A program made the translations under genes and the position numbers. This document shows, piece by piece, positions 6,319 through 63,760 of a DNA stretch of 64,000 nucleotides (the stretch's first letter is position 1; the number at the start of each line of letters is the position of its first letter). Source of the stretch: an uncultured Enterorhabdus sp. (GTDB taxonomy: Bacteria; Actinomycetota; Coriobacteriia; Coriobacteriales; Eggerthellaceae). Location: positions 1 to 64,000 of the forward strand of contig CANSQM010000015.1 in the NCBI GenBank assembly GCA_947649205.1, in the 5' to 3' direction. Under the pieces are notes generated by a model. That model searched no databases and was not told where the DNA came from. It saw nothing but the letters and a program-made list of their open reading frames with translations.

Positions 6319-7670
6319 ACCCCCGCGTGCGGCCGACCCGGCCCGGGCGGGATGGGCAGCATGATGACGAGGGTGAATCGATCCCCCTCGACCGACCACG
6401 ACAAGTGGCCGCCGTACTTCTCAGCGGTCTTCTCCATGGAGCGCATGCCGATACCGTGGGTTCCGTCGTCTTCCTTGGTCGTGCGGGGCAGGGCTGCGCC
6501 CGCATCAATGGTCCCGCTGAAGCGATTTACGCAACGGATGACGGCGATGTCGGCGCGGTAGGTGACCGAGAGCGAGAAGTCCCGCGGCTCGTCGGCGCAG
6601 AGCCGGGCGGTGGCCTCCATGGCGTTGTCCGCGGCATTGCCTATGAGGGTGCACAGGTCGAAGTCGTTGACGAAGGAGAGACGGCTGCCGTCCACGAAGA
6701 AGGAGGGGCGCAGGTTGCTCTCGAGGCATTGGCGGTACTTCTCGGTCAGCAGGACATCGAGGACGTCGTTGCCCGTGCGCACATCGGGGACATAGGGATC
6801 GATCTCGCGCTGGAGGGTTCCGGCGAATGCGCGCAGTTCGTCGAGGGAGTCGTTGGAGCCGTTCTCGGCAAGGGATTCCAGCCGGGAGATAACGTGCTTG
6901 AGATCATGGTGACGGCGATTCACCGCTTCGGCGGCGCTGCGCTGGGTGATGATGTGAAGATGCTGGTCCCGAAGGAGCTGCTGCATGGAGAGCACCTCGT
7001 TGGCGCTTACTTGGGCCGCCAGGTTATGGGCGTTGGCCACGATGATGACGACGGTGCACAGGCTCAGGAGCAGCAGCACGATGACCATGTCCTGATAGAG
7101 GGCGGGATTGGAGTAGTCGTACACGTAGCCGGCATTCCGTATGAAGGTGTAGGGGATGAGGGGCAGCAGGATGAAGAGGCTCTGTCCCCATGAGAGCAGG
7201 CTGATGCCCGCGCAGAAGGCCCATCGGCGAACGACGGCGAGGGCCACGGCGCTGAAGAGGGTGGACAGGGTGATCCAGAGCGCGGCGATGGCCTCGGCGG
7301 GCAGGAGGGCCAAAGTCCCGTAGAGTGGCTGCATGCACAGATCCACGGCGACGATCTTTCCGATTTCAGTGCAGAGCAGGAACACGCAGGCCAGATAGAG
7401 GGCCTGCCCTCGCTGCGTGTGCCGGGTAAGCGCGATGAAGGCGGTCACCAGGGCGATATTGATAAGGAAGTCGAAGGCGAAATCGAGGTGCAACAGGTGG
7501 TTGCCGTGCCAAAGCAGGGCCAGGGCCGCCAGTGCTCCTCCGATCGCGGCGGGATGACGGAAAACCCGGGGCTCCAGGGGCCGCACGAACAAAAGAAGGA
7601 GGCCGAGTTCGAGGACAGTGGAGGCCAGCCAGAGAGGGGAGGCGTAGTGGGTCATGAGGTTGGTTATCAT
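6315..7670 (-). CDS. GHKL-type sensor histidine kinase (AgrC/LytS-like topology)
   Basis: Sensor half of a two-component system, 451 residues. The first 220 or so form six or seven hydrophobic segments ([36 protein letters not shown]). A dimerisation helix carries the phosphoacceptor box [16 protein letters not shown] near residue 254. A GHKL ATPase domain follows, with an N-box ([13 protein letters not shown]) and glycine box ([19 protein letters not shown]). This matches kinases paired with LytTR regulators. Its ATG overlaps the upstream regulator stop (ATGA), so the two are co-translated. Its neighbour across the divergent promoter is a Tat reductase, a likely target. Confidence 0.9.
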
Positions 7671-8380
7671 AGGGCGCTCCCCATGTAATGGGCCAGGGTG
7701 TCGAGAAAATGACGCCGGCGGTGCTTGCTGACGGGCAGGGGCATGCCGCCCACCACGACATCGGTGGGGGTGATGGTTTGGACGAAGGCGAGATTGACGA
7801 GGTAGGCGTTGTGGATGCGGAAGAAGGGGTGCCCACCGAGTTTTCCCTCGATCGCCTTCATGGCCTCGCTGCAGGAAATGGCGCCGCGCTTGGTGTGGAT
7901 GACCACATGTTTGCGCTCAGTCTCGACATAGAGGATTTCGCCGGCATCCACGAAGATGGTCTGCTTGCCCTGCTTGAATTTTGTAAGGCGGGGTCGGCGG
8001 TGCGCGCTGGCCACGCGGGCGCGCTCCATGATAGAGGCGAACGCCCGATAGCTGACGGGCTTGACGAGGAACCCCATGGCTTCGACGGCGTAGCCCTCGG
8101 GGGCGAGGGAACCGTAGTTCGTCATGAAGCACAGCGGCGCATCGATGCCGCGCTCCCGCAGGTGCCGCGCCGCATCGAGGCCGTTGAGCCGCGGCATGTC
8201 GATGTCGAGGAGCACGAGGTCGGCATCGCCGGCAAGCCCCAGGGCCACCGCCTCGCCGTCGGGGTAGTGGACGAGGTGTCCCTCCTCGTGCTGTTCCGCA
8301 AGGAAACGGTTCAGGTGGTCTCGGATGATACGGGCGTCATCCGGAGAGTTTTCGGCCATAACGACGGTGAGCATGGTCAT
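7667..8380 (-). CDS. LytTR-family response regulator
   Basis: Output half of the two-component system, 237 residues. The receiver domain spans residues 1-125; acidic pocket residues (Asp14, Asp15), the phosphoacceptor Asp59 in VLLDIDMP, and the lysine in FLVKPVSY are visible. A LytTR DNA-binding domain follows from about 137 (KQTIFVDAGEILYVETERKHVVIHT, FFRIHNAYLVNL). ATG 8380 follows GAGGAGAGGAGG. A second in-frame ATG two codons later is possible. A much longer frame that continues into the flavoprotein on this strand is a shadow. It is divergent from the reductase at 8546. Confidence 0.92.
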   Translation of the reverse strand: MTMLTVVMAENSPDDARIIRDHLNRFLAEQHEEGHLVHYPDGEAVALGLAGDADLVLLDIDMPRLNGLDAARHLRERGIDAPLCFMTNYGSLAPEGYAVEAMGFLVKPVSYRAFASIMERARVASAHRRPRLTKFKQGKQTIFVDAGEILYVETERKHVVIHTKRGAISCSEAMKAIEGKLGGHPFFRIHNAYLVNLAFVQTITPTDVVVGGMPLPVSKHRRRHFLDTLAHYMGSAL

Positions 8381-8483
8381 TCCTCCTCTCCTCTCAGTAT
8401 AGCTTTCCCTTCCGGGTCCGGCGCGCCCAACTGGTCGGGGCAGCGGGCCAACGAGTCGATGACGGTTGAATCGGGGATCCAGC

Positions 8484-8520
8484 GGGGCCATCATGGCCCC
8501 TGCCGGGCAAGAAGGCCCGG
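8484..8520. promoter_or_regulatory. Tandem hairpins in the leader of the Tat flavoprotein
   Basis: GGGGCCA-TCA-TGGCCCC (8484-8500) is immediately followed by a second stem around GCCGGGC and GCCCGG (8502-8520). They sit 26 bases before the ATG in the 165-nt divergent intergenic region. They could be an operator, an attenuator or RNA stabilisers; there is no U-tract. Confidence 0.4.
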
Positions 8521-8545
8521 AATACGGCAGGGAAAGAAGGAGACT

Positions 8546-10336
8546 ATGGACAAGAACAGAGGGAAGATCCTGGAGAGTCGCTCGACGACGGGAACCTGCA
8601 CGCGCCGCTCGTTTCTGACGGGCTCGCTTATGGCCGGTGCCGGTTGCGCCCTGGCCGGTCTGGCCGGTTGCGCTCCCCAGGAAGCGACCCCGGCAGAGGG
8701 TGCCATGGCCGCCACGGGGCCGGCCGCGGCGGCCAACGCTACCGTTGAGGCGGGTTATCTGACCTACTTCGACTGGCTGGGAGCGGCTCCCGAGATCGAC
8801 GAGACCGCGATCACCGATACCGTGGAGGCCGACATCGTCGTCATCGGCGGCGGCAATGCCGGTGTCTGCGCCGCCCTGGCCGCAGCGGAGGCCGGCGCCT
8901 CGGTGGCGGTGATGGAAGTGCAGACCGAGGCCGACTACACCTTCCTCGGCCATGATATCGGGCACTTGAACTCCAACTGGTCCCGCGAGCACGGCGGCGA
9001 CACCATCGACGAGACCGAGTTCGTCCAGGACTGGACGCGGCGCAACATGAACCGCACCAATCCGCTGCTCGTGCGCCAGTTCGCCGCCGAGAGCGGCGCC
9101 ACCCTGGACTGGATCCTCGATCATCTCGACAGCGCCATCGTCGAGAACTGCGGTATCTTCGGGGTGCCGAAGCCCACGGCCTATCCCGGCGAGATCTCCG
9201 GCTACAAGTGCTGGTCGTCGGCCATTCACTTCCAGGACGAGGGCACCGATTGGCCCGATGCCGCCAAGGCGTTGAAAGCGGCCGCCGAGGCCCTGGGCGC
9301 CACCTGGGCCTTCAACTGCCGCGCGGTGAAGATCGTCATGGAGGACGGCCGGGCGACCGGCGTGGTGGGGCAGGCCCCCGATGGCTCCCAGCGGCTGTTC
9401 GCGGCGGCCAAGGGCGTCATCATCGCCGCGGGCGACTACAGCGGCAATCCGGAGATGGTGTTCGCCCTGAACGACGAGTACCGCGATTTCGTCCAGGCCC
9501 GTGGTCAAAACTATGCTGAGATCGTCGGCAACGGCCGGGTGGGCGACGGACAGCGGCTCGGCTGCTGGGCCGGCGGCCGCATGGAGCCCGGCCCCCGCGC
9601 CTCCATGGGTCGGGCCATGGGCGCCGGAGCCTTCGGCGGCATCGCTGTGCCGCAGTTCAATCGCGACGGCAACCGCTTCATGAACGAGGGCATGCTCGGG
9701 GTGTGGGGCAATCTGTTCCAGGTGATGCGCCAGCCCAAGGGCATCGTCTTCGGCGTGGCCGATGCCACCTGGAAGGAGTACGTGCAGAAGAATGCTCCTG
9801 AGCACGTGTACCCCGGCACGGGTGGCTTCCATGACGGCGGTTTCCTCCAGTCGCTGGAGGAGGAGTTGCCCCAGGTTATTGCCGCTGGGGCCGAGGGCCA
9901 CAAGATTCGCGGCTGCGTGACCTACGGCGCCGATACGCTGGAAGAGCTGGCCGGGTACCTGGGGCTTGAAGACGCGGCGCGGGAGACCTTCCTCGCCGAG
10001 GTGGCCCGTTATAACGAGCTGTGCGCGAAGGGCGTCGACGAGGATTTCGGGAAGGACGGCTTTCTGATGGACCCCATCGCCACGCCGCCGTTCTACGCTT
10101 CCTGCATCGACAGCAGCGAGTTCAAACTCGGCCTCGTGGAGCTGTCGGGCTTGGTCACCGATGGCAACCAGCAGGTGCTCGATGGCGACGACTGCCCCAT
10201 TCCCGGTCTGTACGCCACGGGCAACAGCTGCGGCGGCCGCTTCGCTCTCCAGTACTGCACCCCCATCGCCGGCATCAGCATCGGGTGGGCCACCACCATG
10301 GGCAAGATCGTCGGCGAGACCGTGGCCGCGCTGTAG
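8546..10336 (+). CDS. Tat-exported FAD-dependent oxidoreductase (fumarate-reductase-like flavoprotein), lipoprotein
   Basis: Probable extracytoplasmic reductase of 596 residues. The N-terminus has a twin-arginine signal (TRRSFLTGS, Arg20-Arg21) followed by a lipobox LAGC with Cys42, so it is likely exported folded and lipid-anchored. An FAD-binding Rossmann motif, DIVVIGGGNAGVCAALAAAEAG, starts near residue 96. The rest resembles FAD_binding_2 proteins of the fumarate/urocanate reductase group and ends in a second FAD-contact block (YATGNSCGGRFALQYCTPIAGISIG). There is no haem or FMN domain, so electrons must come from a partner such as the cytochromes at 31-33 kb. The substrate cannot be inferred. 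AAGAAGGAG precedes ATG 8546. Confidence 0.88.
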   Translation: MDKNRGKILESRSTTGTCTRRSFLTGSLMAGAGCALAGLAGCAPQEATPAEGAMAATGPAAAANATVEAGYLTYFDWLGAAPEIDETAITDTVEADIVVIGGGNAGVCAALAAAEAGASVAVMEVQTEADYTFLGHDIGHLNSNWSREHGGDTIDETEFVQDWTRRNMNRTNPLLVRQFAAESGATLDWILDHLDSAIVENCGIFGVPKPTAYPGEISGYKCWSSAIHFQDEGTDWPDAAKALKAAAEALGATWAFNCRAVKIVMEDGRATGVVGQAPDGSQRLFAAAKGVIIAAGDYSGNPEMVFALNDEYRDFVQARGQNYAEIVGNGRVGDGQRLGCWAGGRMEPGPRASMGRAMGAGAFGGIAVPQFNRDGNRFMNEGMLGVWGNLFQVMRQPKGIVFGVADATWKEYVQKNAPEHVYPGTGGFHDGGFLQSLEEELPQVIAAGAEGHKIRGCVTYGADTLEELAGYLGLEDAARETFLAEVARYNELCAKGVDEDFGKDGFLMDPIATPPFYASCIDSSEFKLGLVELSGLVTDGNQQVLDGDDCPIPGLYATGNSCGGRFALQYCTPIAGISIGWATTMGKIVGETVAAL

Positions 10337-10364
10337 GGCGCTTCTGCAACCGAGCCCTCCCCAA

Positions 10365-10391
10365 GGCCCCCGCTCCATGGCGGGGGCCTTT
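10365..10391 (+). terminator. Terminator between the flavoprotein and dgt
   Basis: A 9-bp stem GGCCCCCGC/GCGGGGGCC with a TCCATG loop is followed by TTT. It lies between convergent genes and may serve both. Confidence 0.85.
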
Positions 10392-10404
10392 GCTGCGAGG
10401 AGGC

Positions 10405-11631
10405 CTAAAGGTCGGCGCAGTAGCCGCGGGTCTGGATGGTGCGGGGGCTTTGGGGGAACAGGTGCTCGTAGATGGCCATGAAGTAGCTGTCGGTCATGGA
10501 CGCCATGTAGTCCGCGACGATCTGGTTGGGGTCGCCGGCCAGGTACTCCTCGGCCACGATGGATCGGGAGGTGGCGGCCAGGCGCGCTGCGTGGTGGCGG
10601 AAGATGGGGGAGTCCTCGCGGCCGGCCACCAGGTCGGCCAAAAGGCGGCCGTACATCTCCTCGAACATCTCCTCCACGAGGTTCTCGGTGTCGTCCACCA
10701 TGCCCTCCTTCAAGTAGATGACCTCGTAGTTCTGCCGCTTCGCCCGCTTCAGGTCGGCGAAGACCTCCTCGCTCATGGCGATCTCGCCACGGCCGTAGGA
10801 GTTGTTCACGATGTCCACGGTGAGGTTGTTGATGATCTTGGCGTTGGTGGTGCCGATGACGTCGGAGTCGAAGATGTCTGCGGAATCGATGACCCCCATG
10901 GCCAGGGCGTCCTGGCGGTCTTTGCCGATGTAGGCGATCATGTCCGATACGCGCACCACGCAGCCCTCCAGGGTGGAGGGGCGCAGGGTCTTGATGGTCG
11001 TCTCGTCGGCGTTGCAGGCCTCCACGAGGGCGTCCAGGTCGGCGAAGGAGCCGCAAGCGCCGCGGACGAGACGCTGCTGGGCGAACTCGCCGTTGTGGCA
11101 GAGCACGCCGTCTAGGGTCTGGAGGGAGACGTTGCGGCGGTACAGGGCGTCGAGCACCCGCACCGAGTGGACGTTGTGGTTGAAGTAGCGCCCGGTGCGG
11201 CGGTGGTAGCAGGCCGAGAGGAACCGCTCGCCGGCGTGGCCGAAGGGGGTGTGGCCCACGTCGTGGCCCAGCGCGATGGCCTCGATGAGGTCGCAGTTCA
11301 GGCCGAGCAGGCCGCCGATGCCCCGGGCGATGCGGCTCACGAGCTGCACGTGGAGCCCGCGGCGGCTGATCTCGTCGTTCTCGGTGAACGAGAACACCTG
11401 GGTCTTGTCGGCGTAGCGGTTGTAGGCCGGGATGTTCAGCACCTTCTCGATGTCGCGCACGAAGGCGGGGCGGGTGAGGGTGGCGGTGTCGTGGGGCAGG
11501 TCGCGGCGGCGCACCACCGCCTCGTCGGGGAAGCGCCAGGGGGATGCCGCCCCGGTGGCGCGGTCCTCGCGGATGGCCTCCTCCACGAGGGGGTCTAAGG
11601 TCAGGTAGGGAATGGCATTCGTCGCAGTCAC
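10405..11631 (-). CDS. dgt: Deoxyguanosinetriphosphate triphosphohydrolase-like HD protein
   Basis: HD-domain hydrolase of 408 residues that cleaves dNTPs to the nucleoside and triphosphate. Metal-binding HD motifs appear as RGLHVQLVSRIARGI, then ALGHDVGHTPFGHAGE (His-Asp pair), with a further Asp in CVVRVSDMIAYIGKD. GTG 11631 follows GAGAAAG. The same frame is open to an ATG at 11760, but that extension crosses the divergent promoter region and reads as low-complexity basic sequence. It is divergent from dnaG, a neighbour seen in many Gram-positive and actinobacterial genomes. Confidence 0.88.
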   Translation of the reverse strand: MTATNAIPYLTLDPLVEEAIREDRATGAASPWRFPDEAVVRRRDLPHDTATLTRPAFVRDIEKVLNIPAYNRYADKTQVFSFTENDEISRRGLHVQLVSRIARGIGGLLGLNCDLIEAIALGHDVGHTPFGHAGERFLSACYHRRTGRYFNHNVHSVRVLDALYRRNVSLQTLDGVLCHNGEFAQQRLVRGACGSFADLDALVEACNADETTIKTLRPSTLEGCVVRVSDMIAYIGKDRQDALAMGVIDSADIFDSDVIGTTNAKIINNLTVDIVNNSYGRGEIAMSEEVFADLKRAKRQNYEVIYLKEGMVDDTENLVEEMFEEMYGRLLADLVAGREDSPIFRHHAARLAATSRSIVAEEYLAGDPNQIVADYMASMTDSYFMAIYEHLFPQSPRTIQTRGYCADL

Positions 11632-17318: not shown

Positions 17319-17347
17319 GACCGCAGGCACGAACTTTTAATGTATGA

Positions 17348-17393
17348 AGGCCCCGTGTCCCGGCTGGTAACGGCTGGGACACGGGGCCTCTTC
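17348..17393. terminator. Terminator between rsmB and the toxin gene
   Basis: A 14-bp perfect stem, 17348-17361 with 17376-17389 (left arm AGGCCCCGTGTCCC), has a 14-nt loop followed by CTTCT. It lies between convergent genes. Confidence 0.85.
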
Positions 17394-17423
17394 TCGCTGG
17401 GGCGATAGCTTGCCGGCGGATCG

Positions 17424-17759
17424 CTATTGTTCGTCGAGGGCCTTCGCCAGAAGTCCGAGCGTCTCTCGGTCGAGGCGGCCGATGGGTGCATCGCGCAGCA
17501 GTTTCTCGCGGTTCACCTCGAAAAGCGGATTGAGCTGCACCCAAGAGGGCCTTCTCAGACCGCACGCCTCCCAACGGGGAATCTCCAGATAGCCGGATTG
17601 GTCGTAGTTTCCCGCCGAGGTGACTTTTGCGGTGATGACGCTTGCCCGGCCGGTTTCGTCGAGGATGACCACCGGACGCACTTTTCCCGTATGGGGATGG
17701 TCTGCGAATGCGACATAGGCAAGCCAAATGTTACCTATGCGCGGCTCAGACAAGGTCAT
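17424..17759 (-). CDS. PemK/MazF-like toxin of a type II toxin-antitoxin pair
   Basis: Small basic protein of about 111 residues resembling growth-inhibiting mRNA endonucleases of the MazF/PemK barrel fold. It has an N-terminal RIGNIWLAYVAFADHP and KVRPVVILDE strand pair, where the RPVVIL motif is characteristic, then VITAKVTS. ATG 17759 lies 14 nt inside the antitoxin gene. An earlier in-frame ATG at 17786 would add nine residues. Overlap with the upstream RelB-like gene indicates co-translation. Activity is not proven by sequence. Confidence 0.75.
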   Translation of the reverse strand: MTLSEPRIGNIWLAYVAFADHPHTGKVRPVVILDETGRASVITAKVTSAGNYDQSGYLEIPRWEACGLRRPSWVQLNPLFEVNREKLLRDAPIGRLDRETLGLLAKALDEQ

Positions 17760-18036
17760 CGTACAGACCGTCATCTTCGGGAGCATCGGCCCATGGGGGA
17801 AGGATCGTCATGCCCGTATCGGGTTCGGGCTTCAGGATGGCTTTATCCCGCAGATCGATGGAGGGCTCGGGGCGCACATCGAAGGGCAGGCCGCCCACTT
17901 CAATCGACTTTCTCATGAAGAGGTTGAACGCTTCGCTCAGGCTCATGCCCCATCGTTCGTAGACGGTACGCGTCTGATGCTTGAGTTCGGCGCTCGTTCT
18001 GAACTTGATCTCGGCATTCTTCGTTGCAGTGGCCAT
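17746..18036 (-). CDS. RelB/DinJ-family antitoxin
   Basis: 96-residue ribbon-helix-helix style antitoxin. The N-terminal half (EIKFRTSAELKHQTRTVYERWGMSLSEAFNLFM) fits the RelB/DinJ DNA-binding domain. The acidic, proline-rich C-terminus (PPWADAPEDDGLYDDL) is a probable toxin-neutralising tail. The start has a near-perfect AAGGAGGTG site. It is first in the pair and is expected to repress its own promoter, in the AT-richer stretch at 18040-18110. Pairing with a PemK-like rather than RelE-like toxin is less usual. Confidence 0.78.
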   Translation of the reverse strand: MATATKNAEIKFRTSAELKHQTRTVYERWGMSLSEAFNLFMRKSIEVGGLPFDVRPEPSIDLRDKAILKPEPDTGMTILPPWADAPEDDGLYDDLV

Positions 18037-18288
18037 GAGGCACCTCCTTAATGTGGCCCTTATGTTACTACAAGAGGGTACCTTCGGTGAAGGCAGGCGC
18101 GAGGTAATAGGATGTCTCGCGTTTCTTTTGGAACATGAGCAATATTGTCATGAATGGGCACGTAGATGTCAGAACAGGGAAGCGCAGAAGTGCGATGGGG
18201 ATCCTATACTTTTCTTTGTTTTGACATGTGGTCTAAGGTTCGAGCAGCTGCGCGAATCTATGGGGAGAGAGCGAAGGATGTGAGCATA

Positions 18289-20166
18289 ATGGAGGACACC
18301 TTGAAGACTGTTCTGCGAGAGACTGGCGAGCAGCTCTCTTCGTCGGAGGCGTGCGGAAAAGCCAGACTGAAGGGCCGATTGAGTGCGGAAAAGCTGCTTT
18401 ATCCGACGCGCGATCGCGTCCATGAGATCCTCTACGCCCCTGAAGCGCTGAGTGCCAAACTTCCCGAGCAAACGCTCTACGGATATCTGCGGTCGTCGAA
18501 CGACGACAACCTTTCGGCTGTGGCTTTCTCTTATCTGGGAACTGACATAACCTACAAAACGTTGTTCTGTCAAATTGAGCGCGTGGCACGCTCTCTGCGC
18601 GCAGCTGGGATCGGGCGGGGAGATTTTGTCTCCGTTGTCCTGCCCGGAATCCCCGAGGCGTTCTACGTGGTGTACGCCTGCAGCATGATCGGCGCCGTGG
18701 CGAACATGATCGACCCCCGCTATCCGGCCCAAGGTATCGCGCATCAGGTTCATCAGGTGGGCTCTCGCTTTGTCATAGGACTCACGACAGTCTCGCCGTT
18801 GCTTGTTCCCTTGTATGAGGAAGGCGTCACGGTTGTCGCCGTTTCGCCCTCCGAGTCCCTCGATCTTCCGTCTAAGCTCACCTTTGCGGTAAAGGCGCTT
18901 GCGGGCAGGGTATCGCTCCCGAAGAGGCCGGCCGAAGCGGCACTCTTTAAGTCGTGGTGCGATTTCCTTGCGGCCGGCGAAAGCGTGGCCGCCGTAGCCG
19001 ACTGTTACGTGAGGGATACGCCCGTAGCGGCGCTTTCCACGGGCGGTACAACGGGCATGCCGAAGAAGGTGCTGCTCTCCAACGACAACATCAACGCGGC
19101 GGTGTTCCAGGCGGCGCGGTGTGGCCTTACATTGGACCGCAGCCAAAGCTGGTACGACATCATGCCGCCCTTCATCGCCTATGGCTTGGCCGATGGGCTG
19201 CACCTGCCACTCGTCATCGGCATGAAGGTTTACCTGGTTCCCGATCCGAAGGGAATCGATCTAGCCGAGGAGATGCTGCGGTTGCGTCCCAACCATATGG
19301 CGGGCGCTCCCGACCACTGGCTTTCCCTGGCCGATAGCGAGAAGCTCGAGGGGATCGACCTCTCGTTTCTCTTGGATCCCATTCTGGGCGGCGACGGGGT
19401 GTCGCTTGCGCAAGAGACGCGCATCAACGACTTCCTCGCGTCCCACGGCTGCGCCCATCGCCTGAGAGTCGGCTACGGAATGACGGAGTGCTGCGGCGGC
19501 GCGAGCGTGGCGGGCGCCAACGAGTCCGTCGTCCTCCAGAGCGTCGGCTACTCATTTCCCCAGCAGCTGATCGCGGCTTTCGAGCGGCGAGCCGATGGGA
19601 GCGCGGGCTCGGAACTTCCCTACGTTCCCGCCGATGTTTCCGAACCCATTCCCGAAGAGTACATCGGCGAGATCTGCTTTTCAGGACCCAGCGTCATGCT
19701 CGGCTACTTCGACAATCCCGAGGAGACCTCCCATGCCCTGCGCGTGCACGATGACGGGAGAACGTGGCTCCATAGTGGCGATGCGGGCTATTTGAAGCTC
19801 CCGAAGGGAGAGATCCACATTACAGGTCGCTATAAGGACTTCATCGTGCGCCACGACGGTTTCAAGATTCCCCCGCAAGAAATCGAGGCGGTGGTCTACC
19901 AATGCGACGAGGTCGAAGTGTGTAAAGCGGTGGGCATCCCCGACAGGGATCGCCCCCAGGGTGAGCTCGTGAAGGTGTTCTTCAAGGTGAAGGCGGGGAA
20001 GTCTCCCGCAGGGAAAGATGTGACGGTCGCAGAGCGCATACGCACGCTTTGTGAGGAACGTCTTCCCGCGTACAAACTGCCCTGCGCCTATGAAGAACTC
20101 GATGAGTTTCCCAAGACGTCCATTGGCAAGATCGACTTGAAGGCACTGCGGAAGACGGAAGGGTGA
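18289..20166 (+). CDS. AMP-dependent acyl-adenylate ligase, paralogue 1
   Basis: Class I adenylate-forming enzyme of 625 residues that activates a carboxylate with ATP, probably to an acyl-CoA. The P-loop signature is STGGTTGMPKKVLLS. YGMTECCGG and the hinge-region GEICFSGPSVMLGYFDNPEET, HSGDAGYL, GRYKDFI are followed by the C-terminal lysine in KTSIGKIDLK. ATG 18289 follows GAAGGA at 10-nt spacing; the frame is open to 18166. The next gene starts 6 nt later and is a related ligase. Third positions are less G/C than in neighbours, suggesting acquisition together with the adjacent toxin-antitoxin pair. The substrate is unknown. Confidence 0.85.
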   Translation: MEDTLKTVLRETGEQLSSSEACGKARLKGRLSAEKLLYPTRDRVHEILYAPEALSAKLPEQTLYGYLRSSNDDNLSAVAFSYLGTDITYKTLFCQIERVARSLRAAGIGRGDFVSVVLPGIPEAFYVVYACSMIGAVANMIDPRYPAQGIAHQVHQVGSRFVIGLTTVSPLLVPLYEEGVTVVAVSPSESLDLPSKLTFAVKALAGRVSLPKRPAEAALFKSWCDFLAAGESVAAVADCYVRDTPVAALSTGGTTGMPKKVLLSNDNINAAVFQAARCGLTLDRSQSWYDIMPPFIAYGLADGLHLPLVIGMKVYLVPDPKGIDLAEEMLRLRPNHMAGAPDHWLSLADSEKLEGIDLSFLLDPILGGDGVSLAQETRINDFLASHGCAHRLRVGYGMTECCGGASVAGANESVVLQSVGYSFPQQLIAAFERRADGSAGSELPYVPADVSEPIPEEYIGEICFSGPSVMLGYFDNPEETSHALRVHDDGRTWLHSGDAGYLKLPKGEIHITGRYKDFIVRHDGFKIPPQEIEAVVYQCDEVEVCKAVGIPDRDRPQGELVKVFFKVKAGKSPAGKDVTVAERIRTLCEERLPAYKLPCAYEELDEFPKTSIGKIDLKALRKTEG

Positions 20167-20172
20167 GCAACG

Positions 20173-21906
20173 GTGAATCACAAGGACTCTCATAATGGCC
20201 TCCGGCGTCTCTTGCCCTCGCAGGAGAGACCGTGGAGCAAATACTACAGCCAAGAGGCGCTGGCCGCCGAGCCGCCTGATGCCACGATGTACGACTATCT
20301 GGTGCAGTCGTGCGAGGCCGGCGGATCGGATACGGCTCTGATCTATTTCGGACGACGGGTGACCTTTGGCGACTTCATGGGAGAGGTTGACGTTGCCGCC
20401 AAGGCGCTGTGGGCGCAGGGCGTGCGACAGGGCGATGTGGTTACGGTCGTTTCCCTCGCGACCCCTGAAACCTATGCGCTCGTATACGCTATCAACCGTA
20501 TTGGGGCCAAGGCGAATATGGAATATGCCACCGTCGCTCCCGGCGTGCTCGCGCAATCGCTTCGCAAGACCGAGTCGAAGATGCTGTTCGTGCTTGATCT
20601 TTTTGCCGAAACATTGGAAGGGGAGCTGAAGACTCCGGGAATCCGCAGCGTCGTTTTGCCCATGGAGCGCTCCATGGGGACGTTTGCGCGGATGGCGACC
20701 CGTTTGCGCAGGGCGCCGCGGGGAGCCCATCGAGCCTTGAGCTATGACGGTTTTCTCCGTGCAGGCGCCGCAGCGTCCATTGAGGAGGTGCATGAGGGAG
20801 GCTTGGCGTTTGCCTTGCTTTCAACCTCGGGTACAACGGGCGAGCCGAAGAAGGTCGTTCTTTCCAGCAATGCGATCAACAGCATTGTCTGGCAGTATCG
20901 CCACAGCGGGATGGACTTCAAGCGGGGAGACACCTACCTCTCGGTGGCACCGCCGTTCCTTGCCTTCGGCATGGTTCTCTCGATGCATGCCCCTCTCTGT
21001 CTCGGCGTGGTGAACCATCTGGCGCCCGACCCGTCCGTTGATGCCGTTGTACGGGACTATCTGAGGGTAAAACCCCAGCACTGCCTTGAGGCACCCGCCT
21101 ATATCGAGAGACTGGTCAGGGCCGTTGACGGCCGCAAGGCGGATCTCTCGTTCATCAAGACGCTCGCCGTGGGAGGGGAGAGCCTCTCTCCCGAGCGAAG
21201 AGGGGAGATAGACGAAATCCTCTTTCGCCATGGCGCCCGCGTCGGCGTTATCCATGGATACGGAATGACGGAAGTTGCCTCAACGGCCGTTACCGAGATG
21301 CCCGGCAGGCGAAAGTGCGGCAGCGTCGGCTTGCCCCAGTGCCGGGTGAACGTGAAAGCGGTCGATCTTGAGACGGGGCATGAGGGTGGATATGGAGATG
21401 TCGGCGAGTTGTGGGTGAGTTCGCCGGGAGCCATGATGGGGTACTTCGATAACGACTTGGCCACCAATGAAACCCTGCGCGTTGATGAGAGCGGCGCTGT
21501 TTGGGTGAGAACGGGGGACTTGGCATCAATCGATGAGGACGGGTTCGTGTTCCATCACGGCCGCATCAAGCGCATCGCCATGGTCATCGATCCCGTCACG
21601 AAGCAGATAGAGAAGGTTTTTCCCGAACAGGTGGAAGGCGAGTTGCTGAAATTGCCCGATGTTGCCACGTGCGCGGTAGTCGTGCCCGTCGGGAGCGATC
21701 GCTTGGGCGTGCCCTATGCCTTTGTGGTTCCCGCCGAGGGTGTCGTCTTTGACAAAGCAGCGACTGACAAGGGATTGCGTGGTGCTTTGCCCGCTCACTC
21801 CTGCCCAAGGGATTATTTCTTGGTCGAGGAAATCCCGCTGTTGTCATCGGGAAAGACCGATTATGGGCTCCTGGAGAAGCGGGCCCGCGGCCTCGCGGCG
21901 TCTTGA
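20173..21906 (+). CDS. AMP-dependent acyl-adenylate ligase, paralogue 2
   Basis: Second adenylate-forming enzyme, 577 residues, with LSTSGTTGEPKKVVLSSNA (ATP loop), IHGYGMTEVAST, GELWVSSPGAMMGYFDN, VRTGDLASIDEDGFVFHHGRI and a C-terminal SSGKTDYGLL lysine. It is only distantly similar to the preceding ligase. The hinge after HHGRIKRI departs from the usual GRxKD, reading GRIKRIAMVI, so the second half-reaction may differ. The start is GTG 20173 with a weak ribosome-binding site, probably relying on coupling. Successive adenylating enzymes without an obvious carrier protein or transferase leave the pathway open. Confidence 0.83.
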   Translation: MNHKDSHNGLRRLLPSQERPWSKYYSQEALAAEPPDATMYDYLVQSCEAGGSDTALIYFGRRVTFGDFMGEVDVAAKALWAQGVRQGDVVTVVSLATPETYALVYAINRIGAKANMEYATVAPGVLAQSLRKTESKMLFVLDLFAETLEGELKTPGIRSVVLPMERSMGTFARMATRLRRAPRGAHRALSYDGFLRAGAAASIEEVHEGGLAFALLSTSGTTGEPKKVVLSSNAINSIVWQYRHSGMDFKRGDTYLSVAPPFLAFGMVLSMHAPLCLGVVNHLAPDPSVDAVVRDYLRVKPQHCLEAPAYIERLVRAVDGRKADLSFIKTLAVGGESLSPERRGEIDEILFRHGARVGVIHGYGMTEVASTAVTEMPGRRKCGSVGLPQCRVNVKAVDLETGHEGGYGDVGELWVSSPGAMMGYFDNDLATNETLRVDESGAVWVRTGDLASIDEDGFVFHHGRIKRIAMVIDPVTKQIEKVFPEQVEGELLKLPDVATCAVVVPVGSDRLGVPYAFVVPAEGVVFDKAATDKGLRGALPAHSCPRDYFLVEEIPLLSSGKTDYGLLEKRARGLAAS

Positions 21907-22046
21907 GCAAGACCCTGTTGTCGCCGACCGGGTGAAAATGGGGAGACATCCCGTTGCCTCCTCCGAAGGTGCGGTGTCGAAGGATCCCCCAATCTCCATC
22001 GGCGCCCAGACTGGCTTCTTTTCGCGGTGCCACGCTCGGTTCACGC

Positions 22047-22083
22047 GGCGCCCCGGCTGGCAATGGCCGGGGCGCCTTGCGTT
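22047..22083 (+). terminator. Terminator after the ligase pair
   Basis: An 11-bp perfect stem (22047-22057 with 22066-22076, GGCGCCCCGGC) has an 8-nt loop followed by TTGCGTTT. Confidence 0.78.
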
Positions 22084-22141
22084 TCGCTGGGGACGATGGC
22101 GGGTTGGTGGGAAAAACTATGGGGTTGGTTACCGATGTTTT

Positions 22142-28290: not shown

Positions 28291-28842
28291 ATGGATGAGA
28301 ATCTGAGAGAACTCGGCATGCGCGTCCAGGGCCTGCGCGAGGCCTGCGACGTGTCCCGCCACACCATGGCCCAGGAGCTGGGCGTGGATATCGACACCTA
28401 CCGCGCCTGGGAGGAAACCGGGGTGGATATCCCCATCTCGGCCATCTACCACATGGCCACGAAGTTCTCCGTGGATCTCACGGAGATCCTCACGGGCAAC
28501 GCCCCGAAGCTGGACACCTATCACGTGGTGCGCGCGGGAGAGGGCATCAACGTCGACCGCTTCCCCGGCTACCAGTACGAGGATCTGGCCTGGCGCTACG
28601 CCCGCAAGATCATGCAGCCGCTGCGGGTCGTGCTCGATCCGAGCGATGAACCGGCCGAGCTGGTGTGCCACGGGGGCCAGGAGTTCAACTACGTCGTGGA
28701 CGGCTCGCTCGTCCTCACCTTCGAGGACCGCGATATCGTCCTGAACGCCGGCGACTCCATCTACTTCAATCCGGAGCACCCCCACGGCCAGCGCTGCCAC
28801 GGCGACGCCCCCGCCACCTTCATCACGATCATCGCCGAATAG
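28291..28842 (+). CDS. XRE-family regulator with C-terminal cupin domain, copy 2
   Basis: 183-residue paralogue of the regulator at 22227. The helix-turn-helix is at residues 8-62 (GMRVQGLREACDVSRHTMAQELGVD), and the cupin at residues 105-180 (CHGGQEFNYVVDGSLVLTFEDRDIVLNAGDSIYFNPEHPHGQ). It is last in the oxidoreductase operon and upstream of the second synthetase, from which a 160-nt fold-back repeat separates it. The pair of regulators implies that the two halves of the cluster answer different or graded ligands. Confidence 0.88.
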   Translation: MDENLRELGMRVQGLREACDVSRHTMAQELGVDIDTYRAWEETGVDIPISAIYHMATKFSVDLTEILTGNAPKLDTYHVVRAGEGINVDRFPGYQYEDLAWRYARKIMQPLRVVLDPSDEPAELVCHGGQEFNYVVDGSLVLTFEDRDIVLNAGDSIYFNPEHPHGQRCHGDAPATFITIIAE

Positions 28843-28845
28843 CTT

Positions 28846-29006
28846 GTTCCGTTCGCCCTGGCGGGACGAACGGACACGCCGATGCTGCGGTTCCGACAGG
28901 CACCTGGCCTTGTCCCTTGTTTCGGGCTCGGCGCGTACCGAAGTACGCTTGGCCCGAAGGCGGGGCAATGCCAGGCACCTGTCGGAACCTCGCTGACCTT
29001 GCCAAT
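28846..29006 (+). repeat. Fold-back intergenic repeat, family A copy 1
   Basis: A small hairpin (TCCGTTCG 28848-28855 with CGAACGGA 28867-28874) and the linker GATGCTGC lead into a long imperfect hairpin. Outer arms are 28889-28908 and 28970-28989, 18 of 20 positions complementary. An inner TTCGGGC/GCCCGAA pair surrounds the tip GCGTAC-CGAA-GTACGC (28933-28948). It ends in CGCTGACCTTGCCAAT. The synthetase ATG lies 24 nt downstream. No protein is encoded. Confidence 0.85.
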
Positions 29007-29029: not shown

Positions 29030-30703
29030 ATGGATCACGTTCTGAAGAAATACTGCCCGAGAATCGAATTCGATTCCTACGAGGACTTCGCGGAGAACTT
29101 CCGCATCGAGGTGCCCGAGGACTTCAACTTCGGCTTCGACGTCGTGGACGAGTGGGCCGCGGTGGAGCCGGAGAAGCGGGCCCTTCTGTGGTGCAACGAC
29201 GCCGGCGAGGAGCGCACCTTCACCTTCGCCGACATCAAGCGCCTCTCCAACCAGGCCGCCCACGGCTTCGCCAAGCTGGGCGTGGGCAAGGGCGACGTGG
29301 TGATGTGCATCCTGCGGCGGCGCTGGGAGTACTGGATCTGCGCCGTGGCCCTGTGCAAGCTGGGCGCCACCATCATTCCCGCCTCGCTGCAGCTGACCCG
29401 CAAGGATGTGGTGTACCGTGCCAACAGCGCCGACGTGAAGGCCATCGTGGCCGTGAACGACGACTACGTGTGCACCCAGGTGGAAGAGGCCCTGCCCGAT
29501 TGCCCCGGCGTGCGCGAGACCTTCATCGTGGACGGCAGCCGGCCGGGCTGGATCGACTTCGAGGACCTCATCGCCGGTCAGCCCGAGACCTTCGAGCGGC
29601 CCACGGGCGAGGCGGCGGTCGCTGCCCACGACATCATGCTCATGTACTTCACGAGCGGCACCACGGGCAACCCCAAGGCCGTCGAGCACAACTTCGCTCA
29701 CCCGCTGGGCCATATCATCACGGCGAAGTACTGGCAGCAGGTGCGCGAGAACGAGCTGCACATGTCGGTGACCGATTCGGGCTGGGCCAAGTTCGGCTGG
29801 GGCAAGATCTACGGCCAGTGGATCTGCGGCGCGACCATCTTCGCCTACGATATGGAGAAGTTCGTGCCCGCCAAGCTGCTCCAGAAGATCCAGGACTACC
29901 GGCTGGCCACCTTCTGCGCGCCGCCCACCATGTACCGCTTCATGCTCCAGGAGGACGTGGCGGCCTACGATCTGTCCAGCGTGGAGAACTTCGCCACGGC
30001 CGGCGAGCCCTTGAACGCGGAGGTGACCATCCAGTGGGAGCGGCTCACGGGCAAGAAGATCCGCGAGGGCTTCGGCCAGACCGAGGGGCCGGTGCTCCTG
30101 GCCACCTTCCCCTGGGTGGAGCCGCGCCCCGGCTCCATGGGCAAGCCGTCGCCCTTGCTGAACGTGAAGCTCCTGGACGATGACGGCCGGGAAGTGGAGG
30201 ACGGCGAGGAGGGCGCCATCTGCGTGACGGGCCTGAAAGAGGCCTACCCGCCGGGCCTGTTCGTCGGCTACTACGGCAACCCCGAGAAGACCGCCGAGGC
30301 TGTGGGAGGGGAGTACTACAACCTCCACGACATGGCCTGGCGCGACTCGGACGGCTACTGCTTCTTCGTGGGCCGCAACGACGATGTCATCAAGTGCTCG
30401 GGCTACCGCATCGGCCCCTTCGAGGTGGAGAGCGCGCTGGTGGAGCACCCGGCTGTGGTGGAGTGCGCCGTCACGGCGGCGCCGGACCCCATCCGCGGCA
30501 AGGTGGTGAAGGCCACGGTGGTGCTGGCCCGGGGCTACGAGGGCACCGACGCGCTCACCCGCGAGCTGCAGGAGCACGTGAAGAAGACCACGGCGCCCTA
30601 CAAGTACCCGCGCATCATCGAGTATGTGGACGAACTGCCCAAGACCATCGGCGGCAAGATCAAGCGCAAGCTCATCCGCACCAACGACGGCATCGACGAG
30701 TAG
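29030..30703 (+). CDS. Medium-chain-type acyl-CoA synthetase (AMP-forming), copy 2
   Basis: 557-residue paralogue of the synthetase at 22968, sharing FNFGFDVVDEWA, MYFTSGTTGNPKAVEHN, REGFGQTEGPVLL, DMAWRDSDGYCFFVGRNDDVIKCSGYRIGPFE and KTIGGKIKRKL (catalytic Lys). It lacks the mid-domain insert of copy 1. The ATG follows GAGGAG, immediately after fold-back repeat A1, and a terminator follows the gene. The two synthetases probably act on different carboxylates that share the oxidoreductase. Confidence 0.88.
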   Translation: MDHVLKKYCPRIEFDSYEDFAENFRIEVPEDFNFGFDVVDEWAAVEPEKRALLWCNDAGEERTFTFADIKRLSNQAAHGFAKLGVGKGDVVMCILRRRWEYWICAVALCKLGATIIPASLQLTRKDVVYRANSADVKAIVAVNDDYVCTQVEEALPDCPGVRETFIVDGSRPGWIDFEDLIAGQPETFERPTGEAAVAAHDIMLMYFTSGTTGNPKAVEHNFAHPLGHIITAKYWQQVRENELHMSVTDSGWAKFGWGKIYGQWICGATIFAYDMEKFVPAKLLQKIQDYRLATFCAPPTMYRFMLQEDVAAYDLSSVENFATAGEPLNAEVTIQWERLTGKKIREGFGQTEGPVLLATFPWVEPRPGSMGKPSPLLNVKLLDDDGREVEDGEEGAICVTGLKEAYPPGLFVGYYGNPEKTAEAVGGEYYNLHDMAWRDSDGYCFFVGRNDDVIKCSGYRIGPFEVESALVEHPAVVECAVTAAPDPIRGKVVKATVVLARGYEGTDALTRELQEHVKKTTAPYKYPRIIEYVDELPKTIGGKIKRKLIRTNDGIDE

Positions 30704-32853: not shown

Positions 32854-32963
32854 GAGGCGTCGGGTGTTCCGATTCGCTCAGACAGTCCTCGCTTTGGAGA
32901 ACAGGACATTGAGTCCTGTTCTCGCCGCTGTGGAACTCGCTCGGTCGAAACACCCGCCGTCTC
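32854..32963 (+). repeat. Fold-back intergenic repeat, family B copy 1
   Basis: Outer arms 32854-32872 and 32945-32963 are complementary at 16 of 19 positions. Inside them are a 25-nt string (32872-32896, beginning ATTCGCTCAGACAG), a perfect 11-bp inner hairpin (GAGAACAGGAC 32897-32907 with 32913-32923) and the string CGCTGTGGAACTCGCTCGG starting at 32926. Copy 2 is at 57575. It lies between the cytochrome terminator and the pyr promoter. Confidence 0.82.
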
Positions 32964-36155: not shown

Positions 36156-36572
36156 TATGGGAGCTGGCAAGCGCTGCTGAATGGCACCCTATGCATCGTT
36201 CCCGATTGCCCCTTCCCGTCGTCGTCGGACGATGGCACAGCGCCGGTGCAGAGCTGTACCGTGCAAGCGCCGGCTATATGCGGCTTCGTTACGGTCTGTT
36301 CGGAGACCTAACAAACAACGAGGGTCCTTTTCTCTCCGAGATCCCTTCGATTGCGAAGAAAATGACGGTTCTCGTAGTCTTATGTCGCCGGGAAATCAAA
36401 GCGAGGACTTCTAACCTGGGAAAACTCCAAGTTCATAGAGTGTTTTCGCGCTCATCTCATCGGGCAAGCTACGAGAACCGTCATTTTCTTCGCGTTTGGC
36501 CCCATCTAGATCGGTGGCACACGAAGCTGCACCGATCAGGTGCCGAGGGGGCGCACGGTGTGTCGTGTGGCG
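36156..36572. other. Gene-free 417-nt interval with lower G+C
   Basis: It contains the 25-bp inverted repeat annotated separately. Otherwise there is no convincing gene, promoter or terminator, and frames that cross it lack family character. Confidence 0.55.
36353..36493. repeat. 25-bp perfect inverted repeat, MITE-like
   Basis: Arms 36353-36377 and 36469-36493 are exact reverse complements (outer ends GCGAAGAAAATGACGG... and ...CCGTCATTTTCTTCGC) separated by 91 nt. No target-site duplication is visible at the ends. It lies next to a broken regulator gene. It could be a miniature inverted-repeat transposable element remnant, or a large stem-loop. Confidence 0.75.
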
Positions 36573-37200
36573 TCAGCGTCTCTGCCCTAGCATTTCCAGC
36601 AGTTCGTCTCGGGTGTGTACGCCGACTTTTTGGTAGATGTGGCTCACATGGGTCTTTACGGTGTTGTAAGACAGGCACATCTTGTCGGCGACGGAAGGGA
36701 GTGTGCGGCCGCGGGCGAGATGCCGGAGGATTTCTCGCTCGCGCGTCGAAAGGCCGAAGGCGAGCGCGAATGTCTCCACAGCGTCTTCTCGATCGGCTCC
36801 AGCTGCCTCGCGTGCGGCTTTCCCATCTCCCCCTGCACCCATCCCGCATGGACGATTGAGGTGTAGGAGATGAGGGCGAACCCGATGAGCAGCCCCAGAT
36901 CGATGGCGAATGTTCCCAGACCGAATACGCGCACCGGGAAGCGCGTGCGCGTATCGGCGAGATAGGCGAACTCCGTGTATATGTAGATGAGGAAGAGCTG
37001 GTAGCCGGTCTGCATGATATAGGCGCCCCAGGTTGCCATGCCGGATCCCACGACTGACAGAATGAGAAGGCCTCCGGCCATGAGCGGCACGATGAGTCGG
37101 GAGAACAGGTGGCTGAGACTGTGGCCAGCCAGCCGGTGGTCTACGGCGACGGCCAGGGCGACGAAGGTGCCCACGCAGGCGAACAGCGTCAGCGAACCCG
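36573..37200 (-). pseudogene. Remnant of a membrane LuxR-family regulator, 5'-truncated and frameshifted
   Basis: The last 75 or so codons form a good LuxR helix-turn-helix (GLSTREREILRHLARGRTLPSVADKM, SYNTVKTHVSHIYQKVGVHTRDELLEML). Upstream, in another reading frame, are about four membrane segments (LFACVGTFVALAVAV, LIVPLMAGGLLILSVVG, LFLIYIYTEFAYL, AIDLGLLIGFALISY). The frame change lies between roughly 36790 and 36860. The membrane part stops abruptly near 37200, where the opposite strand becomes a flavoprotein. Both a frameshift and loss of the 5' half make it nonfunctional. Confidence 0.8.
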
Positions 37201-37610
37201 ATCTGGTGCGCGCTGATACCCTGGCCGAGGCCGCTGCGGCCCTCAAGCTGGATGCCGATGTCCTGCAGAAGACTATCGACGACGATAACGCTGCCTGTGC
37301 GGCCAGTGTGGATACCGAGTTCGCCAAACCGGCGGCATCGCTGGTGGCTGTGGGCACGGCGCCGTTCTACATTGCCAAGCTGAACCAGTACTATCTCATG
37401 TCGGTGGGCGGCATCGAGTGCGACATCAACGCCCGGGTGGTCGATAGCGCGAAGACGCCCATCGAAGGCCTTTACGCCGTGGGCACCGACGGCTGCATGC
37501 TGCACCGCAACATCTACACCATCAACGTGGGGGGGAGCACCTGCAACTGCAACAATATCAACTCTGGCCGTACGGCGGCCAATCATGCCCATAGCTTGAT
37601 AGGCGCGTAA
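37194..37610 (+). pseudogene. C-terminal remnant of an FAD-dependent reductase
   Basis: About 138 codons of in-frame sequence match the C-terminus of FAD_binding_2 reductases: LVRADTLAEAAAALKLDADVLQ, then FYIAKLNQYYLMSVGGIECD, and the final FAD block PIEGLYAVGTDGCMLHRNIYTI...SGRTAANHAHS. The N-terminal FAD domain, signal peptide and start are missing. Recognisable sequence begins at about 37194, just where the divergent LuxR remnant ends. The reading frame upstream (to 37038) is antisense to the LuxR remnant and not flavoprotein-like. Confidence 0.82.
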
Positions 37611-37632
37611 CGCTTCAAAGCCATCCCTCCCC

Positions 37633-37660
37633 AGGCGGCCTCTTGCGAGGCCGCCTTTTT
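37633..37660 (+). terminator. Terminator after the flavoprotein remnant
   Basis: AGGCGGCCTC/GAGGCCGCCT stem with a TTGC loop followed by TTTT. It is retained although the gene is broken. Confidence 0.92.
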
Positions 37661-37824
37661 ATATTCAGGGTGCAACAAAAGAGGTTCAGGGGAGAAACAG
37701 GTGGATTACCGGGTCGTTTGGTGGTAGAGGGCAATGACTACAATGAATAGACAGCGCTCTTGTGGAGGTTTTCTCCCTGGTTTTGCGCGATAAGTAAACC
37801 TGTGCTAACATCTTCCGCCGTGAG

Positions 37825-45430: not shown

Positions 45431-45691
45431 ATGAGCATCATCGAACCGAAGATCGACGTCCTTCTGGACCGCACCGATAACGACCGCTTCCTGTTGTGCG
45501 CCCTGGCCTCCAAGCGCGCCCATGACATCAACGACATGATGCGGGGCCAGCGCGACCGCGCCATCCAGCTGCAGACCGCTGTGGAGATCGCCCGCGCCGC
45601 CGACACAAAGCCCCTGTCCATGGCCTTCAGCGAGGTGGCCCGCGGCGAGGTGTCCTACGACCCCGAGTCTATTGATGTCAAAAATCATTAA
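45431..45691 (+). CDS. rpoZ: RNA polymerase omega subunit
   Basis: 86-residue assembly subunit of RNA polymerase. It has the family block NDRFLLCALASKRAHDINDMM and the short helix QLQTAVEIARAADTKPLSMAFSEVARGEV. It follows gmk after 15 nt with an AGAGGAA site. Its stop codon lies inside a 30-bp perfect palindrome. Confidence 0.93.
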   Translation: MSIIEPKIDVLLDRTDNDRFLLCALASKRAHDINDMMRGQRDRAIQLQTAVEIARAADTKPLSMAFSEVARGEVSYDPESIDVKNH

Positions 45692-45832
45692 TTAATGATT
45701 TTTGACCCGACGCTGCGAAGCCCCGTAGCACCCAATCTTGGCGCTCCAAGCCCTCGTCGCGTACCTTAGTACGCTTCCTCGGTCTTTCGCGTCAATCTTG
45801 GGCGTTACGGGGCTTCTCGCTGACTTACTACG
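45677..45832 (+). repeat. Fold-back intergenic repeat, family A copy 3, with terminator-like palindrome
   Basis: It begins with a perfect 30-bp palindrome (45677-45706, half-site GTCAAAAATCATTAA) that spans the rpoZ stop. The linker CGACGCTGC follows, then outer arms 45717-45735 and 45798-45816 complementary at 17 of 19 positions. The tip is GCGTAC-CTTA-GTACGC (45759-45774), and the tail CTCGCTGACTTACTACGCC. The arms differ entirely in sequence from copies 1 and 2, but plan and flanking strings agree. It lies between rpoZ and thiI. Confidence 0.78.
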
Positions 45833-45877
45833 CCAACCTGTGCTACAAAAATCTTAATTAATAGATATCAGAGGGTC

Positions 45878-47098
45878 ATGATGGAATTTCAGAGAATCAT
45901 TCTCGTGCACTACCACGAGATCGGGCTGAAGGGGCGCAATCGCGGCGTGTTCGAGAAGCGCCTGCAGAAGAACTTGGAGGCGCTCCTCGGTGCATACCCG
46001 ATCGTCACCATCCATCGCATCTCTGGGCGGCTGCTCGTGTTCCTCAAGGAGGGCACGTCGTTGGAGCTGGCCAATGAATGCGCCGACGCCATCCTGGGCG
46101 TGCCCGGTGTGGCCCGGGTGTCCTGCGGCTTCAAGTGCGAGCAGGAGATGGAGGCCATGGGCCGGGCGGCCTGCATCGCCCTGGCCGAGGCCGAGCCCTT
46201 CCAGACCTTCAAGGTGAGCGCCCGGCGCAACCACACCACGTTCCCCATCGATTCCATGCAGCTGAATCGCGATATCGGTGCGGTGCTCTGCGAGGAGTTC
46301 CCCGCCAAGATCGTGCAGATGAAGGGCCAGGACGTCACCGTGGGCGTGGAAGTGGTTGAGGGCTCCACCTACGTGTACGCCCGCAGCATCCGCGGCATCG
46401 GGGGCCTGCCCGTGGGCAGCTCCGGCACCGTGGTGTCGCTTCTGTCCTCGGGCATCGACTCGCCGGTGGCGCTCTGGCGCATGGCCCGGCGCGGCGCGGT
46501 CTGCGTGGGCGTGCACTTCTCCGGGCGTCCCCAGACCTCGGATGCCTCGGAGTTCCTCGTGGACGATATCGCCCGAGTGCTGGAGCGCACCGGCTGCATC
46601 GGGCGCGTGTACGTGGTTCCCTTCGGCGACTACCAGCGCGAGATCTCCCTGGCCTGCCCGCCGGGACTGCGGGTCATCCTCTACCGCCGCCTCATGTTCA
46701 AGGTGGCCGAGGAGATCGCCCGGCGCGAACGGGCCGGGGCCCTGGTGACGGGCGAGAGCCTGGGCCAGGTGGCCTCCCAGACCCTCGACAACATCCGCGC
46801 CACCGACGCCGCCGTGGCTATGCCGGTGCTGCGCCCGCTTATCGGCTCGGACAAGTTGGAGATCATCGATGCGGCCCAGCGTCTGGGCACCTTCGAGATC
46901 TCGTCCATGGACGCGCCGGACTGCTGCACGTTGTTCATGCCGCGCAATCCCGAGACCCATGCGAAACTGGCCGACGTGGAGGCCGCCGAGGCCGCCTATC
47001 CGGTGGAGGAGTGGGTGCAGGCCCTGGCCGATGCGGCCGAGCCCCACGACTACGCCTGCCCGGCCTACCGGCCGCCGCGGAAAACCAAGGCCCGCTAG
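45878..47098 (+). CDS. thiI: tRNA 4-thiouridine synthetase (ThiI)
   Basis: Inserts sulfur at U8 of tRNA and may contribute to thiazole synthesis. The 406-residue protein has the N-terminal ferredoxin-like fold (ILVHYHEIGLKGRNRGVFEKRLQKNL), a THUMP domain, then a PP-loop ATPase (LLSSGIDSPVALWRMARRGA) and TGESLGQVASQTLDNI. There is no C-terminal rhodanese domain, as in many Gram-positive forms. It is preceded by repeat A3 and the weak site GAGGG. Confidence 0.95.
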   Translation: MMEFQRIILVHYHEIGLKGRNRGVFEKRLQKNLEALLGAYPIVTIHRISGRLLVFLKEGTSLELANECADAILGVPGVARVSCGFKCEQEMEAMGRAACIALAEAEPFQTFKVSARRNHTTFPIDSMQLNRDIGAVLCEEFPAKIVQMKGQDVTVGVEVVEGSTYVYARSIRGIGGLPVGSSGTVVSLLSSGIDSPVALWRMARRGAVCVGVHFSGRPQTSDASEFLVDDIARVLERTGCIGRVYVVPFGDYQREISLACPPGLRVILYRRLMFKVAEEIARRERAGALVTGESLGQVASQTLDNIRATDAAVAMPVLRPLIGSDKLEIIDAAQRLGTFEISSMDAPDCCTLFMPRNPETHAKLADVEAAEAAYPVEEWVQALADAAEPHDYACPAYRPPRKTKAR

Positions 47099-61201: not shown

Positions 61202-61205
61202 CCGG

Positions 61206-61364: not shown

Positions 61365-61384
61365 TATGGAGGAATGAATCTGCG

Positions 61385-63628: not shown

Positions 63629-63650
63629 GAGCTTCTATCTCGCAAACGTT

Positions 63651-63686: not shown

Positions 63687-63760
63687 AACATCAGGGAGAG
63701 GGGAGCGGTCGAGCCGAGTACGGAGGGGAGGGAACGCCCGACTCGACCGCGGGGGATAGC

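Follow-up and report, generated by a model that had tools for sequence, protein, structure and literature searches.

The window analysed here, a stretch of 64,000 nucleotides from an uncultured Enterorhabdus sp. (assembly GCA_947649205.1, contig CANSQM010000015.1, forward strand), carries three copies of an intergenic repeat, each matched by a covariance model on the plus strand. Copy 1 (28846-29006) is flanked by a cupin gene (28291-28842) and the gene of an AMP-binding enzyme (29030-30703), copy 2 (61205-61366) by dnaJ (60053-61201) and an rsmE-type RNA methyltransferase gene (61385-62182), and copy 3 (45677-45840) by an rpoZ-like gene (45431-45691) and thiI (45878-47098). A first-pass annotation made from the letters of the window alone had placed three copies with a common plan at these positions, each 3' of a gene end and 20-50 nt before the next start; all three are present there on that plan, and the gaps between tail and next start are about 24, 21 and 46 nt.

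Read along the upstream gene, the repeat unit is about 165 bp long and consists of a first hairpin (H1), a linker, a second hairpin (H2) and a tail. H1 is short, typically 9-17 bp, and starts at the end of the upstream coding sequence or sometimes inside that end, so that it lies no more than about 10 nt from the stop codon or overlaps it. The linker ends in GAYGCTGCG and leads into H2, a hairpin of about 110 nt whose tip in many copies is the near-invariant GCGTACCNNAGTACGC; 3' of H2 follow CTCGCTGACTT and a less conserved tail that ends at approximately ACCTG. The conserved unpaired motifs of the family are GAYGCTGCG and CTCGCTGAC. In copy 1, H1 (GTTCCGTTCGCCC/GGGACGAACGGAC; 28846-28875, plus strand) begins 3 nt past the stop codon TAG, and is followed by the linker CGATGCTGC (28880-28888, plus strand), H2 (28884-28996, assigned to the minus strand) with its tip GCGTACCGAAGTACGC at 28933-28948, and the tail, which starts with CTCGCTGAC (28990-29006, plus strand). 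Copy 2 has H1 at 61205-61233 (plus strand) and H2 at 61242-61354 (minus strand), with the same tip GCGTACCGAAGTACGC at 61291-61306. In copy 3, the 5' arm of H1 (45677-45706, plus strand) is the end of the rpoZ-like gene itself, GTC AAA AAT CAT TAA, and the 3' arm is the exact reverse complement of these last codons; its H2 (45712-45823, minus strand) has unrelated arms and the tip GCGTACCTTAGTACGC at 45759-45774. The tip pattern GCGTAC-N4-GTACGC occurs three times in the window, compared with 0.11 occurrences expected from dinucleotide shuffles.

Several other repeats and variable stretches occur in the window. A second composite family at 32855-32960 and 57575-57692 has differing outer arms that pair, an inner hairpin of variable sequence and the common motifs GACAGTCCTCGCTTTG and GGAACTCGCTCGGT; a three-hairpin insert found in one arm of three copies of the repeat described above (L001, L037 and L056) is possibly related to it. 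A perfect 25-bp inverted repeat with arms 91 nt apart (36353-36493) lies in a segment (36177-37675) that is missing from both same-genus relatives, and two segments of about 4 kb each (6309-10409 and 17320-22090) are absent from the collinear regions of the relative G004 and largely absent from those of a second one, G002. Near the window end, a 37-nt palindrome with 78% complementarity (63631-63706) falls outside the family.

A covariance model built from 41 copies detected 37 loci in the source genome after removal of opposite-strand echoes (the weakest at E = 1.7e-5) and found the family in 95 of 119 sampled Eggerthellaceae genomes, so that the further copies anticipated by the first-pass annotation do exist in this and related genomes. 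Searches at higher depth gave 12-48 copies per genome in seven genomes. Named matches include Gordonibacter, Adlercreutzia, Eggerthella sinensis, Slackia, Enteroscipio, Ellagibacter and Collinsella, the Collinsella copies having the same layout as those in Eggerthellaceae; linker, tip, internal pair pattern and tail are conserved across genera. Within the source genome, one locus (L002) was a chance match inside a coding region, and matches to the tail only were rejected as autonomous elements, being deletion remnants or composites with another repeat. A Pseudomonas match of the tip pattern, within recB, was likewise due to chance. The repeat matched no Rfam family at either gathering or relaxed thresholds (its best score was to raiA-hairpin, 17.2 bits against a cut-off of 43.7), and was not found in the viral contigs, phages and plasmids searched; no paper on repeats in these genera turned up with the terms used. 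This looks like a large and apparently undescribed repeat family, and the earlier statement that no described family could be recognised holds against Rfam and searchable papers.

Pairing is far better preserved than sequence partners taken at random would allow. Standard pairs make up 91.9% of pair cells among 104 copies, compared with 66.5 ± 0.6% for shuffled partners and no more than 49.6% after sliding the 3' side, and 776 cells are changed on both sides compared with 253.9 ± 17.5 with shuffled partners; these cells count sequences rather than events, but the margin is nonetheless very large. The covariation therefore exceeds chance, and the individual observations behind it, that copies 1 and 2 differ by paired changes and that copy 3 has outer arms that are unrelated to those of the other two but still pair, were reproduced. 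Between nearest copies there are 233 two-sided Watson-Crick changes and 172 one-sided changes away from a Watson-Crick pair, although these counts, like those of strand and wobble given below, are not independent because the copies are related. Arms change as whole blocks, and wobble intermediates are rare. Since H1 may also be copied from a gene end, template switching at the DNA level could make much of this covariation, and the first-pass conclusion that compensatory change implies selection on structure was too strong even though the covariation itself is genuine.

H1 is closely tied to the ends of host genes. An H1 scoring at least 8 is present beside the linker in 76% of 161 distinct copies but in only 0.25% of shuffles. 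Among the 120 copies with a callable upstream reading frame (chosen automatically), 74 have a stop codon that ends 0-10 nt ahead of H1 and 35 have it inside H1; a TAG before H1 is simply the stop codon of the host gene. Copies are also found 3' of tRNA-Pro genes and of rnpB, which we take from its sequence to be the RNase P RNA gene. In two copies (L043 and L086) the position of H1 is held by an ordinary terminator hairpin, and no U-tract follows H1. A separate terminator is found downstream of several copies, showing that H1 and the terminator are not simply one and the same. One copy (L029, in genome G028) lies in frame inside a membrane transporter-like reading frame, to which it adds a low-complexity linker.

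As in copy 3, the end of the host gene doubles as the 5' arm of H1 at about 16 loci, and its exact reverse complement forms the 3' arm; judging from their translations, the genes concerned include prs, an rpoZ-like gene, gapA and coaE. At the rpoZ-thiI site of the close relative G004, two synonymous codon changes (GTC to GTT and AAT to AAC) are both matched by changes in the opposite arm of H1. Some relatives have an ordinary GTTCCG-type H1 at the prs and gapA sites. Template switching during replication is known to create and repair hairpins (PMC8794818), and the replacement of a hairpin in one step by an inverted copy of its neighbour is the product expected of such switching, which we infer to have operated here.

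The two strands of the repeat differ in how well they are predicted to fold. Computed energies are lower for the antisense strand in 155 of 160 H2 and 91 of 104 H1 hairpins with DNA parameters, and in 150 of 160 and 89 of 105, respectively, with RNA parameters. The difference is modest for the window copies: H2 of copy 1 is computed at −43.1 kcal/mol on the minus strand and −39.5 kcal/mol on the plus strand with DNA parameters, and the two are equal with RNA parameters. The antisense strand folds better because conserved CA/CA mismatches of the sense strand become tandem T·G pairs and pyrimidine mismatches become G·A pairs, and because the loops of H1 turn into C(GNNA)G in 72 of 86 four-base cases and into C(GNA)G in 12 of 14 three-base cases. 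Both are unusually stable loops in DNA. On the sense strand, A-C mismatches outnumber G-U pairs (160 vs 121 overall and 36 vs 9 in H1), whereas eleven tRNAs from the same loci have 12 G-U pairs and a single A-C mismatch. Together, the computed strand difference, the wobble counts and the two-sided changes argue against a sense RNA and for pairing that is maintained at the DNA level. They also weaken the roles in RNA processing, RNA stability or 5' regulation that had been offered initially, since the mRNA strand is not the better folder and does not prefer G-U over A-C.

Copies are also strongly oriented with respect to replication. In four closed genomes, 73 of the 76 listed copies have one orientation per replichore (24/25, 25/25, 10/10 and 14/16). 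In G100, with origin and terminus taken from GC skew, 24 of 25 copies are co-directional with the fork compared with 62% of 315 sampled genes (odds ratio 15, p = 0.0003), an excess that could be smaller in reality because housekeeping genes may exceed the 62% baseline. In two further genomes, G072 and G139, copies of like orientation form blocks, but the blocks do not divide into two arcs of equal size, possibly due to rearrangement or scaffolding. Because copies run with replication, the better-folding strand lies on the leading-strand template, where the bottom strands of attC sites in chromosomal integrons have also been reported (PMC11023631).

Comparison of orthologous intergenic regions revealed both filled and empty sites. 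The copy 1 and copy 2 sites are empty in the same two congeners, with intergenic gaps of 58 nt and about a dozen nt, respectively, and a site at a rubrerythrin gene is filled in G004 but empty in G002. Genomes G139 and G105, which are 92-96% identical over the compared region, differ in their copies at two sites. At one of these, the stop codon is followed in G139, and also in a third species (G133), by a short plain gap, where G105 carries a full copy flanked on each side by TAG. The plain gap in both other species marks the G105 copy as a gain, possibly with a 3-bp duplication, although the repeated TAG comes from this single clean site, as elsewhere the whole intergenic stretch differs. The same gap, after the same stop codon, holds other inverted-repeat sequences in G072 (L438) and G124 (L439), and so seems to attract various small repeats. 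Nested copies (L057, L049, L136 and L159), internal-deletion remnants and the in-frame copy L029 likewise point to mobility. With dozens of dispersed copies, these observations support the initial suggestion of a mobile REP/MITE-like family. Many sites are filled in several genera, indicating that some copies are old or that sites are re-used. Across genera, the similarity between copies is hardly greater at orthologous sites (0.79) than at non-orthologous ones (0.77), a difference too slight to settle between ancestry at the locus and spread within genomes. Y1_Tnp transposases of the RAYT/IS200 type are absent from five copy-rich genomes (G024, G029, G034, G072 and G074); both Y1_Tnp and RVT_1 were rejected as mobilisers, being absent together from copy-rich genomes such as G024, G034, G072 and G074.

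We favour, with somewhat more confidence than doubt, the explanation that these are small non-autonomous palindromic DNA repeats of a REP/MITE-like kind, mobile or recently so, and that a folded DNA strand is probably their substrate. In this view a mobilising enzyme would act on the antisense strand, which would fold while single-stranded at the replication fork, so that pairing would be conserved while stem sequence stays free. A polymerase that meets the folded strand might switch template and thereby renew arm sequences in blocks, which could also account for those H1 hairpins that consist of the last host codons and their inverted copy; any effect on host mRNA ends would be secondary. Sitting less easily with this explanation are the many sites filled in several genera, which would fit old functional elements kept in place, the absence of both Y1_Tnp and RVT_1 from several copy-rich genomes, the restriction of the TAG repetition to one clean site, and the derivation of strand-specific folding from computed energies and loop types. 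Only tentatively would we go further and propose a new class of replication-polarised mobile element that is recognised as a folded DNA strand on the leading-strand template, works without a Y1 transposase or a reverse transcriptase, and can rebuild its outer hairpin from the last codons of the gene it follows.

Alternatively, the repeat might be transcribed as a structured RNA in 3' untranslated regions and operon gaps (an RNase processing site, an exonuclease block or a terminator) that spread and was then kept for the benefit of the host. The very stable computed folds, the occupation of many orthologous sites across genera and the placement of copies, mostly in gene orientation directly 3' of stop codons but also behind rnpB and tRNA genes, would all be expected of such an RNA. 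We nevertheless consider it unlikely, given that the sense strand is the poorer folder and is short of G-U pairs where tRNAs of the same loci are not, that H1 is without a U-tract and an ordinary terminator comes after several copies, and that replication polarity is stronger than gene orientation. A structured RNA encoded by the antisense strand of each copy would explain the cUUCGg-type tips and the tandem U-G and G-A pairs of the antisense fold, but that strand has only a small excess of wobble pairs in H2 (160 vs 121), the H1 loops are GNYA rather than GNRA, the tail showed no conserved promoter and Rfam yielded no match, making this the least probable of the readings considered. If the copies were instead passive palindromes, old repeats that today neither move nor serve a function and in which template switching keeps rewriting one arm from the other, then the H1 copies of gene ends, the block-wise arm changes and the scarcity of wobble intermediates would follow, and the published precedent for hairpin formation and repair (PMC8794818) would apply. 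This too seems quite improbable to us, because something else would have to account for the cross-genus conservation of linker, tip, internal pair pattern and tail, and because of the polarised gain at one site and the anchoring at stop codons. An integron attC-type site, whose folded bottom strand is recognised by an integrase, would share the position behind stop codons, the sequence-free stems, the better-folding bottom strand and its place on the leading-strand template (PMC11023631), but with AAC/GTT boxes absent and copies dispersed behind housekeeping genes rather than arrayed as cassettes, this identity is highly improbable.

The anchoring of the repeat at stop codons and its replication polarity make the mechanism of mobilisation testable. 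More generally, the family, which is large, apparently undescribed and carried by common gut bacteria of the class Coriobacteriia, provides natural replicates by the hundred for the study of how perfect hairpins arise and stay paired. Many of its stems, some of them made from protein-coding ends, alter both arms together. Its strong covariation, which probably does not come from a functional RNA, is a caution for covariation analysis.

Among known systems, group IIC introns invite comparison because two copies have an ordinary terminator at the position of H1 and because the sense strand is the lagging-strand template, but the repeat, at about 165 nt, has no intron domains, and reverse transcriptase is missing from several copy-rich genomes. 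MITE-like repeats of the ERIC/RU, NEMIS and Bcr1 type are similar in size, intergenic location, hairpin folding and lack of coding capacity. Unlike them, the present repeat has no terminal inverted repeats at its outer ends, its complementarity resides in two internal hairpins, and hairpin sequence is replaced between copies. The repeat resembles attC sites (PMC11023631) in lying behind stop codons, in its sequence-free stems and in having a bottom strand that folds and is on the leading-strand template, but it is dispersed behind housekeeping genes without cassette arrays, and R and L boxes with the AAC/GTT core do not appear in conserved columns of A1/A2.

The GTAG and CGTC REPs are dispersed palindromes at gene 3' ends that are associated with RAYT (TnpA-REP) transposases (PMC3733652, PMC8266576). 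Like them, the repeat sits at gene 3' ends, with some copies inside genes and some supplying stop codons, and the irregularities of its stems are conserved. A further likeness to REPs would be recognition specific to one strand in its folded single-stranded form, as the computed folds suggest. REPs, however, are 20-40 bp long and have one hairpin, marked at its foot by GTAG or CGTC, whereas the present repeat is about 165 bp long with two hairpins, has a strong replication polarity and occurs in several copy-rich genomes that lack a Y1 transposase. The unpaired GTAG at the hairpin foot that defines one superfamily is lacking. The other combines CGTC, placed at the foot of a stem of 8-9 bp that starts with A-T pairs, with a CCA tail (PMC3733652). 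Here CGTC occurs only in the antisense linker, a few nucleotides from H1 rather than at its foot, and H1 stems are mostly longer and start with GTTCC. We therefore do not file the repeat under GTAG or CGTC REPs or under attC sites, although it may still work as these do; with REP and MITE-like families in general it shares many dispersed intergenic copies and presence or absence at the same site in close relatives.
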